A DNA stretch of 64,000 bases from Bacteroidia bacterium. Lineage in GTDB: Bacteria; Bacteroidota; Bacteroidia; Flavobacteriales_D; Cryomorphaceae. The position numbers and the translations under genes were made by a program. Under the pieces are notes generated by a model, which saw nothing but the letters and a program-made list of their open reading frames with translations, was not told where the DNA came from and searched no databases. Position 1 is the stretch's first letter, and each line of letters begins with the position of its first letter. The stretch spans positions 62,001 through 126,000 of the forward strand of contig JAUICL010000004.1 of the NCBI GenBank assembly GCA_030427905.1. Reading direction: 5' to 3'. Shown in pieces: positions 46,641 to 52,305 of the stretch.

Positions 46641-46678
46641 AGATTCCTATCTTGGTGATATTAAATAGTCTTTTGTCC

Positions 46679-47203
46679 ATGAAAAATAAAATGTATTTGT
46701 TCTTTTTCCTGACTGGGCTCATGTTTAGTTCTTGCGTGGAAAAGTCGGTGAATCTCAATGCGGTGGGTACAGACAAGTTTGCAGCCAATCAAATTGATGC
46801 GATGCCAGATAGCTTAGGTTTGATGGATACCGTGTACGTATCGGTGTATTCGGATATTTATAGTGAAACAAAGTCTACCAGGTTTAACCTGACGGCTACA
46901 TTGAGCTTGCGCAATACGAGCATTGATCACAGTATTTTTATATCAGATGTAGATTACTACGATTCTTCTGGTAAAATGTCGAAGGCCTATCTCGAAAAGC
47001 CAATTGAGCTATTGCCCCTTCAAACTGTTGAGTATGTTATCGAAGAAGTGGACGAAACAGGGGGGACCGGAGCAAACTTCATCATTTGTTGGGGGGGCAA
47101 AAATGGAAATGTGAATCCTTTGTTTGAAAGTATCATGATTTCTACTCAAGGCCAGCAAGGTATTTCATTCACTTCTCGTGGCGTTTCTATCAGCAGGAAG
47201 TGA
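46679..47203 (+). CDS. DUF3124 domain lipoprotein
   Basis: 174 residues from ATG at 46679; the open frame starts at a GTG 27 bases earlier, which would put charged residues ahead of the signal. Lipobox SSCVEK. The body follows the DUF3124 pattern: VYVSVYSDIYSE, LSLRNTSIDHSIFISDVDYYDS and ETGGTGANFIICWGG. These proteins are small periplasmic beta sandwiches of unknown function. Probably co-transcribed with the MscS gene. Confidence 0.85.
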   Translation: MKNKMYLFFFLTGLMFSSCVEKSVNLNAVGTDKFAANQIDAMPDSLGLMDTVYVSVYSDIYSETKSTRFNLTATLSLRNTSIDHSIFISDVDYYDSSGKMSKAYLEKPIELLPLQTVEYVIEEVDETGGTGANFIICWGGKNGNVNPLFESIMISTQGQQGISFTSRGVSISRK

Positions 47204-47370: not shown

Positions 47371-48747
47371 ATGGATAAAATAATTGTTGGAAGTCAAGAG
47401 TGGTGCGGGTTTCCGCAACTTCACATTCCTACCATAAAGGCACGGGTAGATTCTGGTGCCAAGACATCTTCTCTACATGCTGTCAATATTGTACCGTTCA
47501 AGAAGGGCACAGAGCGATGGGTGAAGTTTGATGTACATCCTATCCAGGGAGATGCCAAGACCACAGTGAGTTGCGAAGCTCCAATTTTTGATAAGCGAAG
47601 GGTAAAAAATTCCGGAGGTCAATCGGAAGTGCGATTTGTGATCAAGGCGGTACTCTCGCTCGCTGAAGACACCTGGGAAATTGAAGTAACCTTGGCTAAT
47701 CGAGATACCATGGGCTATCGGATGCTACTCGGGCGCCAAGCCATGCGAGGTAAAATTCTCGTGGACCCCGAAGCTTCTTTTCTGCTAGGCGAACCTTCAA
47801 GCGATATCCTCAGGCAGCATTATCATTCAAAAGTGATCAAGGCTACAGGGCTTAAGATAGGCGTATTGGCAACGAATCCAGACTTGTATAGCAATAGAAG
47901 ATTGATAGAAGCTGGACAAGAGCGAGGCCACGAAATGGAGTTTTTGTCCATTAAGGATTGCTATATCAAACTAGATGGGAAGACCCCTGAAATGCACTAC
48001 CGCGGTGGGCGAATTCTCGATGATTTCGACGCAGTGATACCACGTATCAGACCAAGTGCGACTTTTTATGGATGTGCCTTGACTCGCCACTTTGAAGCCA
48101 TGGGCGTATACACCTTCAATACGGCATCGGCGATAAAAAAGTCGAGGGATAAGCTGCATGCCCTTCAGCTTTTGATCAATAATGGATTGCCGATTCCAAC
48201 TACGGGTTTTGCCAATTCGCCACTCGATACTAACGATTTGATTCAAATGGTTGGTGGCGCACCTTTGATCGTAAAGCTTCTGGAAGGAACCCAAGGTAAG
48301 GGTGTCGTGCTGGCCGAAACCAAAAAGGCTGCAGAGAGTTTGATTAATGCGTTTAAGAGTTTGAAGGCCGATATTCTCGTTCAGGAATTTATCAAGGAAG
48401 CTAATGGACAGGATATTCGCTGTTTTGTAGTGAATGGAAAAGTTGTTGAGAGCATCATGAGAACTGCTGCGCCAGGAGAGTTTCGAGCGAATATCCACAT
48501 GGGGGGTACAGCCTCTTTGGTGAAAATTACTCCGGAAGAACGCCGCGTTGCTCAATTAGCTGCTAAAACCATGAACTTGAAAGTAGCGGGTGTGGATATC
48601 ATTCGAGGGCAAAACGGGCCACTTTTACTCGAAGTCAACTCCTCACCTGGGTTGGAAGGAATCGAAGGAGTATCAACGAAAAACATTGCGGGTAAGATTA
48701 TCGAAGCGCTTGAGAAGGACATGAAGTTCCAGAAAACAACCAGCTGA
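47371..48747 (+). CDS. rimK: RimB-like aspartyl protease fused to RimK (S6 glutamate ligase)
   Basis: 458 residues, against about 300 for a normal RimK. Residues 1-150 form a retropepsin-like domain of the type annotated as ATP-dependent zinc protease (PF05618): active-site DSG at D27-S-G29 in [14 protein letters not shown], and the second motif MLLGR at about 118-122. Residues about 160-450 are Rim[35 protein letters not shown], the ATP-grasp [14 protein letters not shown], and [13 protein letters not shown] at the end. RimK adds glutamates to the C-terminus of ribosomal protein S6. In some bacteria separate protease and ligase genes are neighbours. Fusion would put opposing activities in one chain. 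The target here is inferred. Confidence 0.92.
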
Positions 48748-48778
48748 GAGCCGTTTTACCCAAGCCATTAAAAGACGA

Positions 48779-48814
48779 GCAGGTATCATCAATTTTTAGA
48801 TACCTGCGTTTTTT
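48779..48814 (+). terminator. Rho-independent terminator of the protease-RimK gene
   Basis: A perfect 9-bp stem, GCAGGTATC at 48779-48787 with GATACCTGC at 48799-48807, then six T (48809-48814). The right arm lies inside the last codons of the convergent kinase-like gene, so the stem also forms at the end of that message. Confidence 0.9.
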
Positions 48815-49848
48815 GTATTCAAGATTTGCACGCCTAGCGACTTCTCAATATGAAGATTGAGTACCTCGGCCATCGTTTGAAGATTAGAGAAGGCGTCGGT
48901 GTTGTGAAATTGGTTGAGGTCTTTCGTCAACGATTTGACCTTCTCTGGAGTCGATATTTTCTCTTTTTTCATCCTTAAGAGCAAGCTTCTCGCCCTGCGC
49001 CGATATGTGCTCAATCGCTTTTTCATGGCAACGCGTTCCATTCGACTATACTGATTGGTAGTTTCTACACTCATCAATTCCTGGACGAGTTTTACCAATT
49101 CGATATTGTCCTTAAAAAACTGGGGTTTATAGATGTTGAGTCGCCCTTCGTACGATTGCTGGTCGAAATCCATGGCGCGCAAGCGATATTGCACATTATC
49201 AAAGTCTTGGGTGATCTCAACCACGAAGTTATAGGCTCGCATATCGCCTAAAAGGCGGATCGAACAGCGCTCATTAAACCGAATAAACTCCTTGGCCAGC
49301 CGGAGTCGATTTTCAATAACCACATCTTTGTTTTGACTGATAAATTCATCCATGGGAATCCCGATCACATGCTCCTCAACCAGCGTGCGCTCATCTACCA
49401 GATAGTTCACTCTATCTGGTGAGAAAATCTCTTCAAGCTCAAGGCCATATATCCGTGAAGCATCAGCTTGCTTGATGTAGAAATAGTCATGGTTATCATT
49501 GAGTTCGTTGATGATTTTCACCCGAAACGGCTTCGAGTTTCCAAACGAACAGTAGTCGATGCGCTCTACTTTCAAAAATGGGATTCGATCGCCTTCTGAG
49601 AAGAGATCTTCATAGACTGAAACCAGGCCTTTGTAAATTTCATCTCGCTCATCTTCTCGGTACACGACCGAATACCACAGCGTTTCTTCATTTTGACTGT
49701 TGAGAACGGGAAACATATCATCAAAACGAAGCAGATCGTAGTAGGAGATGGGCAACTTCGAAATGCGCGAGTAGTTTCGCAAATGCTCCTTAAGCGGCGC
49801 TTTGATCTTGTAAATGGGCTTCTTGAATTTAATGGTGTTGAATTCCAT
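48796..49848 (-). CDS. Unannotated protein with kinase-fold motifs
   Basis: 350 residues, cytoplasmic, no membrane segment. Although I know no named family for it, the order of motifs is that of kinase/APH-fold enzymes: a Lys strand FYIKQ (K126), Glu at 139-140, a hinge-like LVEEHVIGIPMDEFI (157-171), a catalytic-loop-like LGDMRAYN (D202 and N207, D+5 to N as in kinases), and MDFDQ (D227) in the place of DFG. The N-terminal 100 residues are strand-rich without known fold; the C-terminus (about 265-340) is basic and helical. It stands alone, convergent with the protease-RimK gene and sharing its terminator. Phosphotransfer is inference from motif spacing. Confidence 0.6.
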   Translation of the reverse strand: MEFNTIKFKKPIYKIKAPLKEHLRNYSRISKLPISYYDLLRFDDMFPVLNSQNEETLWYSVVYREDERDEIYKGLVSVYEDLFSEGDRIPFLKVERIDYCSFGNSKPFRVKIINELNDNHDYFYIKQADASRIYGLELEEIFSPDRVNYLVDERTLVEEHVIGIPMDEFISQNKDVVIENRLRLAKEFIRFNERCSIRLLGDMRAYNFVVEITQDFDNVQYRLRAMDFDQQSYEGRLNIYKPQFFKDNIELVKLVQELMSVETTNQYSRMERVAMKKRLSTYRRRARSLLLRMKKEKISTPEKVKSLTKDLNQFHNTDAFSNLQTMAEVLNLHIEKSLGVQILNTKNAGI

Positions 49849-50064
49849 TTTACTACTTCCAGGTGAGTTTTCTCTTTTTGCTTTGATACCCTTGTCGTTT
49901 TGGTAAATGATTAATGCGATTGAACGGAAGTATAGCAGATTAAGACCAGACTACAAAGCAGTCACCCCTAGTTTTGGTCTAATTTTCATTACTTGATAAA
50001 TTTCACCCAAACAATCGTGTCCATTGTCGATTGATCAGATCTAAAGGCATAGTTCTTGTCTTAT

Positions 50065-50076
50065 CCTAGATCTAGG
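50065..50076. promoter_or_regulatory. Perfect 12-bp palindrome before the acyl-adenylate enzyme gene
   Basis: CCTAGATCTAGG equals its own reverse complement and lies 48 bases before the ATG at 50124. A half-site CTAGG recurs at 50091-50095. The rest of the 275-base gap has an AGACCA/TGGTCT inverted pair (49943-49948, 49975-49980) and no gene. Confidence 0.35.
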
Positions 50077-50123
50077 GACAAACCCAAGGACTAGGAAGTA
50101 TTAATCACATTTGAAATTGAATT

Positions 50124-51650
50124 ATGGCCATTATTGGAAAACTGCTCAAAGGAGCGCTCGATGTCGTACTTGCATTAAAACCCGAAAGTTCAGATATAGC
50201 AGCACTTCAGAAATCTGAGTTACAGAAACTCCTAACAAGTGCAAAAGATACGTCATTTGGAAAGTATTACGGCTTTAGTGCGATTCTGGAATCGGATGAT
50301 ATCATTGGGAATTTTAAGCGCACCGTGCCCATATATGAGTATGCTGAAATGAACGAGCGGTGGTGGAGACAGCAACGATCGTTTCCGGATATTACATGGC
50401 CTGGACGTCCCGATTTTTTTGCAAAGAGCAGTGGCACCACTGGGAAATCGAGTAAGCGAATCCCCATCACATCAGATTTTCTTTCCAGTATGAAAGCGGT
50501 TGGAAGATCTATGATACAGGGACTCGCACATTTTGATTTGCCTGAGTCTGTCTTCGAAAGTGAAATTCTCATGTTGAGTAGTTCAGCAGATTTAACGGAA
50601 AACGAAGACGGCTTTTTGGAAGGAGAGATTTCTGGAATCAATGTGAGTAACTTTCCCAATTGGTATGAAACATTTTACCGCCCGGGAAAGGAGATAGCGG
50701 CGATAGATGACTGGGATGAGCGCATTCAGCGAATAGCCGAAGAAGCGCCAAATTGGAATATTGGCGCCATAGCGGGAATCCCTTCTTGGGTATTGCTGAT
50801 GCTCAAAAGAATAGTAGAGTACCATGAATTGGAAACGATTCACGATATCTGGCCTAACCTAAAAGTCTACTCATCAGGTGGGGTAGCGTTCGAGACTTAC
50901 CGTAAGGACTTCGACGCGATTTGCAAAGAGCCACTGATCATTATGGACACTTACTTGGCTTCTGAAGGCTTTGTGGCGTTCAATTCTCGTCCGAATTCGA
51001 TGGCGATGGAGTTGGCGATAAGCCATGGCTACTTCTTTGAGTTTATTCCATTTGATGAGCGAGGAGTAGATGAGACTGGACAAATTTTGGATAATCCTTT
51101 GTCTCTTAATATTGATGAGGTAGAATTAGATCAGGAATACGTACTGGTACTTAGCACTTGCGCTGGGGCATGGCGCTATGTGATCGGCGATGTCATCAGG
51201 TTTGAGCGAATGGATCCACCAGAGATTAGAATCACTGGGCGCACGAAATTTTTCTTGAATGTAGTTGGGTCTCAGCTATCGGAAGAAAAGCTCGATGCAG
51301 CTGTGCTAGAACTGTCAGAAAAACACGGGGTTTCGATCAATGAGTACATTGTGGGCGCTGTTAAAAATAAGGGGGGTGACTACCTACATCAATGGGTAAT
51401 CGTATCGGATGACAAGCCCAACTCTAAGCATTTGGTGGATGATCTAGATTTAATATTGAAAGGTGCCAATAAAAACTACGAAGTTGCTCGTTCCAAAGCT
51501 TTGAAAGGGGTAGAGCTCGTGGTTATTGATAAGAATACCTACAATGCCTATTTAGAGAAAACCAAGAAGAAAGGTGGACAAGTAAAAACGCCAAAGGTGA
51601 TGGGACAAGAGAAAATGAAAGCATTACTGGAGCTTATTCGTTCAAAGTAG
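50124..51650 (+). CDS. GH3 auxin-responsive promoter family acyl-adenylating enzyme
   Basis: 508 residues, the normal length. The adenylation signature is KSSGTTGKSSKRIPIT (about 98-113); YSSGGVAFE (about 250-258) and EYVLVLSTCAGAWRYVIGDVIRF (about 336-358) are the other two GH3-family motifs. In plants this fold joins amino acids to acyl acids such as jasmonate or auxin. Bacteroidota carry members with unknown substrates. It is a single gene; its 3' end overlaps the convergent metalloprotease gene by 17 bases. Confidence 0.92.
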   Translation: MAIIGKLLKGALDVVLALKPESSDIAALQKSELQKLLTSAKDTSFGKYYGFSAILESDDIIGNFKRTVPIYEYAEMNERWWRQQRSFPDITWPGRPDFFAKSSGTTGKSSKRIPITSDFLSSMKAVGRSMIQGLAHFDLPESVFESEILMLSSSADLTENEDGFLEGEISGINVSNFPNWYETFYRPGKEIAAIDDWDERIQRIAEEAPNWNIGAIAGIPSWVLLMLKRIVEYHELETIHDIWPNLKVYSSGGVAFETYRKDFDAICKEPLIIMDTYLASEGFVAFNSRPNSMAMELAISHGYFFEFIPFDERGVDETGQILDNPLSLNIDEVELDQEYVLVLSTCAGAWRYVIGDVIRFERMDPPEIRITGRTKFFLNVVGSQLSEEKLDAAVLELSEKHGVSINEYIVGAVKNKGGDYLHQWVIVSDDKPNSKHLVDDLDLILKGANKNYEVARSKALKGVELVVIDKNTYNAYLEKTKKKGGQVKTPKVMGQEKMKALLELIRSK

Positions 51651-52305
51651 GCTGTATTGGATTTTGATCCTTTACACACATCTCAACGCCTTCTATGGGC
51701 ATGTAATATTTGTGCAACTGATCCTTGTATGATTCGCTGACCAATTCATTTTCAAGTAAATACCGTTTTGTGGCGATGATTTCTTTGTGAAAACCGTGTT
51801 CGATTGCAATACTGTCGGCTTCATGCTCTACGCTTTTCTTGAATTCATCAGAAGTATAGTACCGAATACCATAGCTCATCATGCCCATAACCGACCTTTT
51901 CTCGTAATCTACGATATGCCCGAGTTCGTGAGCAAACCAGCCCTTCAATACCTCGGTTGGTAAGTCTGAAACGCGCAACTCCTTTGAATCGCGAATGTAT
52001 TCAGCTATCATTATTCGGTACTTGCGTTCCCCTTTCACTAGGTTCGAAAGATTAATTATCGGTTGAGCCACCATGGTGGTCTTTTTCAACTTCCGTTTCT
52101 CCAAGGTAATCTCATACGGGTGAAGGACTTCATATTCTCGAATGACTTCATCGAAAGCCATTTGCACGTCTTCATTTTCTATTCCCTTGTAGTTAACAGT
52201 CATTCCGTCTAATTCAGTTGGTTTTATGTTTATTGATATGATGGTGGACCAAAGGATCACAACGAGTATCAGCAAAAGTCCAATCATTCTAAGTCTTTCA
52301 TTCAT
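51634..52305 (-). CDS. Small membrane-anchored putative zinc protease
   Basis: 223 residues. One N-terminal helix (about 7-27), then a mixed domain in which WFAHELGHIVDYE (about 128-140) gives the zinc motif HELGH. The third ligand may be the Glu in VEHEADSIAIEHG about 30 residues later, as in gluzincins with ExxxD. The protein would sit in the periplasm or at the inner membrane surface. No known family beyond the metal motif is recognised. The last codons overlap the GH3-family gene on the other strand. Confidence 0.65.
   Translation of the reverse strand: MNERLRMIGLLLILVVILWSTIISINIKPTELDGMTVNYKGIENEDVQMAFDEVIREYEVLHPYEITLEKRKLKKTTMVAQPIINLSNLVKGERKYRIMIAEYIRDSKELRVSDLPTEVLKGWFAHELGHIVDYEKRSVMGMMSYGIRYYTSDEFKKSVEHEADSIAIEHGFHKEIIATKRYLLENELVSESYKDQLHKYYMPIEGVEMCVKDQNPIQPTLNE

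Follow-up and report, generated by a model that had tools for sequence, protein, structure and literature searches.

A minus-strand gene in the window (the whole 64,000-nucleotide stretch analysed here) encodes a member of an unnamed, uncatalogued, widespread, compact and conserved bacterial kinase-like family found in Bacteroidota and Verrucomicrobiota. The protein is probably catalytically active in the cytosol, as an ATP-dependent phosphotransferase of the protein-kinase-like superfamily. Among the structures compared, its predicted fold is nearest to PI3K/PI4K/PIKK, kinases that act in lipid and stress signalling in animals and fungi. The proposal of phosphotransfer derives from the predicted structure and from residue invariance. 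The gene, its putative functional parts, and its neighbors are located as follows.

48796-49848, minus strand: kinase-like family gene, an ORF of 350 aa with an ATG start
49510-49551, minus strand: nucleotide-loop region, residues 100-113 (CSFGNSKPFRVKII), from model strands 92-100 and 108-114 and conservation
49471-49473, minus strand: K126, presumed beta-3 lysine, on model strand 119-127
49432-49434, minus strand: E139, presumed helix-C glutamate, within model helix 130-142
49228-49245, minus strand: presumed catalytic loop D202-M-R204-A-Y-N207
49105-49170, minus strand: putative metal-binding D227, in D-F-D-Q, with the activation segment as far as N248, from conservation
48779-48814, plus strand: terminator-like hairpin and T-run that follow the RimB-RimK gene and reach into the 3' end of the kinase gene
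47371-48747, plus strand: RimB-RimK fusion gene (Pfam/NCBIfam), convergent with the kinase gene
50124-51650, plus strand: GH3-type enzyme gene (Pfam/NCBIfam), upstream of the kinase gene and divergent from it

The minus-strand reading frame of 350 residues was confirmed, and a check of the codons showed that K126, E139/E140, D202, N207, and D227 (in MDFDQ) stand where the sequence-only reading had placed them. Residue conservation was assessed in an alignment of 133 proteins, 123 of them distinct. K126, D129, R132, E139, D202, N207, D227, F228, D229, and Q230 are each present in 123/123 distinct members, as are C100, N104, P107, and R109 of the nucleotide-loop region (G103, 121/123) and Y240 and N248 of the activation segment. 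A beta-3 lysine, a helix-C glutamate, a catalytic aspartate with asparagine at +5, and a metal aspartate are thus all found, each on the expected secondary-structure element of the window-protein model described below. Position 203, directly after the presumed catalytic aspartate, is methionine in 122 members and isoleucine in one, and position 204 is arginine in 111 and histidine in 12. Residues 139-140 had been described as an acidic pair; E139 is indeed invariant, but position 140 varies (E in 48, H in 46, Q in 21, and D in 8 members). The near-invariance of the activation segment suggests a single conserved acceptor in the cell, be it a molecule or a protein, and not a range of different ones.

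An AlphaFold2 model of the window protein, built on an alignment of 36 rows, reached pLDDT 85.4 and pTM 0.85. In sequence order it has strands 92-100, 108-114, and 119-127 (K126), helix 130-142 (E139), and two further strands (149-152 and 155-159). Next come two helices (166-172 and 181-198), the loop from D202 to N207, and strands 208-215 and 218-225, and D227 then leads into a helical C-lobe, with residues 232-243 (activation loop) at low confidence. A second model, of a verrucomicrobial homologue that is 49% identical to the window protein (locus L031, 28 rows), has the same secondary-structure layout (pLDDT 83.7, pTM 0.83; four other models of this homologue were less confident, at 69-73). 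Both models show a two-lobed kinase fold. Assignment as a kinase is well supported by the two predicted structures, the structural comparison, and the invariant catalytic residues, and structure prediction, proposed in the sequence-only reading as a check, bears out the kinase fold suggested there.

Foldseek's own ranking places protein kinases first for both models. For the window protein, the rows listed include protein kinases (among them the JAK2 pseudokinase and SIK3), Bud32, and Vps34, with the top query TM-scores of 0.36-0.40 belonging to Vps34 chains and one PI3K, in an overall modest range of 0.2-0.4. The 50 rows listed for the L031 model are mostly protein kinases, along with Rio2 and Bud32, and 0/50 are PI3K-type chains. 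In a viral structure library, 39 of the 50 rows listed are named kinases. VIA-align, which re-ranks Foldseek's top 1000 PDB chains by structure and lists 50 entries per model, gave PI3K, PI4K, or PIKK chains in 50/50 of the entries listed for each model. The best for the window protein is 2x6f (Vps34; 260 residues, 4.3 A; Z 13.0-11.1 among the entries listed) and for the L031 homologue 2x6i (Vps34; 272 residues, 4.7 A; Z 12.3-9.4 among the entries listed). Since protein kinases head the Foldseek ranking, they were in the set compared by VIA-align and yet fall outside the entries listed, which argues that the protein, taken over its full length, resembles PI3K more than it does ordinary protein kinases. 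Among the chains compared, that is, Foldseek's top 1000, the nearest solved fold to the predicted structures is that of PI3K/PI4K/PIKK.

The absence of HipA, APH, CtkA, and actin-fragmin kinase from the VIA rows listed is no evidence against these, because a comparison confined to Foldseek's top 1000 chains does not rank them lower. The PI3K ranking could in principle be an effect of this chain selection, in which case the family would consist of small-molecule or HipA-like kinases related most closely to APH, HipA, or some other kinase-like family of bacteria. In keeping with such a relationship, the Foldseek rows listed for L031 lack PI3K, the catalytic loop of HipA also reads Asp-x-His-x-x-Asn, and a near-invariant activation segment would fit a single small molecule. 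HipA is a bacterial kinase, as the present protein appears to be. We nevertheless consider this reading rather unlikely, given that all 50 VIA rows listed per model are PI3K-type and that neither HipA_C (PF07804) nor APH (PF01636) was matched by the window protein or by 36 family members. Three HipA_C genes occur in the window's genome, and two of the HipA_C type lie on opposite strands about 22 kb past the window end (G000:C8:148368-150258).

Profile comparison by hhalign is equally silent on HipA and APH. Against PI3K/PIKK, HipA (3 sequences), APH (11 of 12 loci, a long two-match protein of L127 being left out), and UbiB, the family reached a probability of at most 1.2%, which is not significant, as 39 unrelated window ORFs reach up to 0.9%, hardly below this value. 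The method is not blind, since the same thin PI3K profile gave 73.7% against UbiB. When the whole family was used, PI3K scored 13.9, below the median of 15.5 of 100 column-shuffled controls. The profile-profile search that had been proposed for placing the protein therefore gave no significant match to any of the four families.

Neither Pfam nor NCBIfam gave a match above cut-off for the window protein, nor did Pfam for 36 family members, so that the earlier remark that no nameable kinase family is matched holds. PADLOC and PHROGs yielded nothing beyond scattered weak matches, and a PDB sequence search gave no match of note. Weak matches to PIP49_N (E 0.00079), SPECT1 (0.0026), and Sec6 (0.0047) occurred in one of the 36 members each and were taken as chance. 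The PI3K/PI4K/PIKK model PF00454 was not matched at E<=1 by any of the 36 family members, and in 0/198 genomes; of the control genomes, 1/14 matched, below cut-off. Judged by sequence models, the family falls outside PF00454, and "PI3K-like" here denotes a resemblance of predicted structure. No recognised description of such a family was found in the literature within the scope of the search, which excluded bioRxiv and most subscription journals.

The best structural matches (PF00454 proteins Vps34, PI4KB, ATM/Tel1, SMG1, and mTOR) extend over about 240-285 residues of both models, at 8-14% identity in the VIA rows listed. Shared with PI3K/PIKK sequences are a lysine followed by an acidic residue at +3 and arginine at +6 (K126, D129, and R132), Asp-x-[Arg/His]-x-x-Asn, and a D-F preceded by a hydrophobic residue; these spacings around K126, D202, and D227 were read by eye from the sequences and are weak evidence alone. 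Where PI3K has D-R-H-x-x-N and D-F-G, the family has D-M-[R/H]-x-x-N and D-F-D, so that a basic residue two positions after the aspartate is common to both, being histidine in PI3K/PIKK and mostly arginine in the family. The proline before the beta-3 lysine is 19 residues away, as against 18 in mTOR and Vps34, whereas the Asn-to-Asp distance is 20 residues rather than the 13-14 of Vps34 and mTOR. At 350 aa, the protein is also too short to accommodate the large helical or C2 domains found in PI3K. The phosphatidylinositol-kinase-like effectors of Legionella, described from this one genus (PMC9758233), likewise have a PI-kinase-like fold in bacteria, and some of them fall outside Pfam. The present gene differs in being chromosomal and in belonging to Bacteroidota/Verrucomicrobiota.

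By analogy with known kinases, K126 and E139 would bind the alpha and beta phosphates of ATP, with N207 and D227 as magnesium ligands, and D202 would orient or deprotonate the acceptor. R204, which is histidine in one group of members, may stabilise the gamma phosphate, as does the histidine of the D-R-H motif in PI3K. The acceptor would be one specific conserved cytosolic molecule or protein. Other chemistry is also known from kinase folds, with SelO and SidJ as examples of AMP transfer and glutamylation, and in the window's genome the gene is next to a glutamate ligase fusion, which could hint at a comparable reaction here. This is improbable, as the canonical kinase residues are kept in their usual order in 123/123 members and the glutamate ligase neighbor is not conserved.

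That neighbor is a fusion of 458 residues combining a RimB-like retropepsin domain, PF05618 (5-138), with RimK, PF18030 and PF08443 (161-452), and it thereby unites in one chain an S6-tail modifier and a possible trimmer. The two genes converge with 48 bp between them. On the plus strand, a perfect 9-bp inverted repeat (48779-48787/48799-48807) with an 11-nt loop precedes a G and a run of six T; the folding z here is -4.5 on the plus and -5.0 on the minus strand. The pattern scan, with a loop limit of 8, did not list this hairpin, and the fold of a stretch cutting the stem was unremarkable; Rfam gave no match over 48600-50200. The hairpin seems well suited to serve as terminator of the RimB-RimK gene. 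The sequence-only reading had the two genes sharing a terminator, which is roughly right in that the kinase stop codon sits in the hairpin loop, but in the minus-strand direction the hairpin has just a weak U-tract.

From this arrangement it had been suggested that the kinase acts jointly with the RimB-RimK fusion in modification of ribosomal protein S6, provided that the pairing is conserved. Relatives of RimB-RimK were found beside the family gene in none of 116 other loci (blastp, E 1e-5; 3' flanks of 1.5 kb or more in 78 of the 116) and in none of 16 further loci (0/132 other loci in total). About ten loci are repeats, as the 117 loci including our own hold 107 distinct family proteins. 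A PF05618 protein was not matched in two of six kinase-carrying genomes, whose completeness is not stated. The pairing with RimK thus looks local to the window's genome, and a joint role in the S6 pathway, to which the convergent arrangement and the intervening hairpin would lend themselves, is largely refuted and hardly credible. As far as tested, the sequence-only reading was right on the fold and wrong on the pathway. At another locus, a DUF3124 protein encoded near the kinase gene (L018:9798-10334, minus strand) is 56% identical to the DUF3124 protein of window positions 46652-47203.

On the other side of the kinase gene, several imperfect inverted repeats occupy the intergenic 49938-50106, for example the palindrome 50065-50076. 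Against OlsH, a lyso-ornithine lipid synthetase model with a cut-off of 620, the GH3-type enzyme fell short at 314 bits. Beyond it, 51634-52305 (minus strand) encodes a 223-aa protein without a Pfam match above cut-off that contains HELGH and EHEAD, which we take to be a zinc-protease-like pattern.

A PEP synthase gene adjoins the kinase gene in four distinct loci, L019 (identical to L097), L098, L105, and L073, as called by Pfam and NCBIfam (L098 by blastp only). The adjacency is spread over three branches of the tree and requires at least three changes, and a simple uniform simulation put the chance that some gene family recurs three times at 0.3-6.5%. DUF299 proteins (PF03618) are known regulators of PEP synthase and PPDK. 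PF03618 was matched in 0/296 genomes of the window's phylum, compared with 3/14 control genomes, so that these bacteria may regulate PEP synthase/PPDK otherwise. The kinase could be imagined to regulate PEP synthase through phosphorylation, replacing the DUF299 regulator missing from the sampled Bacteroidota; DUF299 regulators would be functional analogues only if this were true, and the window protein itself does not match PF03618. Co-occurrence argues against such a role. In the sample of the window's phylum, PEP synthase (E<=1e-100) was found in just 16 of 80 kinase-carrying genomes (64/80 without), and 18 of 34 PEP synthase genomes lack the kinase. In the Verrucomicrobiota sample, the enzyme occurred in 0/35 kinase genomes and the kinase in 0/5 enzyme genomes. 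The window's genome carries the two genes on different contigs, the adjacency was absent from 16 further loci (0/16), and clustering of the PEP synthase label along the family tree is not significant (30/500 shuffles as low). Regulation of PEP synthase is therefore very improbable, and its adjacency may reflect chance or a link confined to particular lineages.

Other recurrent neighbors were rejected as partners, since they look clade-bound: an RNase R-like gene with an FtsX-type permease (Opitutia), an M1-type peptidase (L024, L025, and L062), and an Fe-ADH (L006, L008, L009, and L010). Pfam naming covered 39 neighbor proteins, a part of the total, so that a rarer shared partner could be missed.

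The family was recovered as 139 encoding stretches in one genome-contig scan. The best 80 of these 139, retained as loci, are from Bacteroidota and Verrucomicrobiota by their titles and are 46-64% identical to the window protein. A contig scan with a single protein reaches close relatives only, and members in other phyla are therefore possible. By titles, the family is known here mostly from environmental genomes. It is present in 80/296 sampled genomes of the window's phylum and 24/60 near-relative genomes, the window's own genome being included in both counts, and in 35/194 genomes from the phylum to which a Coraliomargarita locus belongs, taken as Verrucomicrobiota. Across these three samples the pattern is all or nothing, as every match has an E value below 1e-90 apart from fragments (two stretches in G249 and a 50-residue piece in G345). 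The G249 fragments (G249:C1:3158166-3158407) are weak matches with in-frame stops, apparently a decayed copy. One copy per genome is found, except in G091, which has two; its second copy (L160) keeps every catalytic residue checked. A 256-residue N-terminal extension in L151 was rejected as a fusion, as its composition resembles a non-coding high-GC reading and Pfam gave no match.

Family matches were absent from 72,556 plasmid records, 50,697 phage records, and viral contigs, which together with one, rarely two, copies per genome fits a chromosomal housekeeping gene. In a tree built from 55 of 81 sequences, a branch with support 100/100 separates the 23 verrucomicrobial rows from all others. 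The family may represent an old, vertically inherited bacterial branch of the PI3K/PIKK type, a class regarded as essentially eukaryotic, that is shared by Bacteroidota and Verrucomicrobiota and acts on one conserved substrate, a view we offer tentatively and with some doubt. A 2007 survey of kinases in ocean metagenomes counted the PI3K family as eukaryotic-specific (PMC1821047).

Kinase-like families missed by sequence models are gaps in the inventory of bacterial signalling. The present family is found in 80/296 and 35/194 genomes, is nearly always single-copy, and has a near-invariant active site, yet it falls below the Pfam and NCBIfam cut-offs. A native bacterial family with the PI3K fold would, if true, bear on the origins of PI3K/PIKK and would provide a concrete protein for assay.
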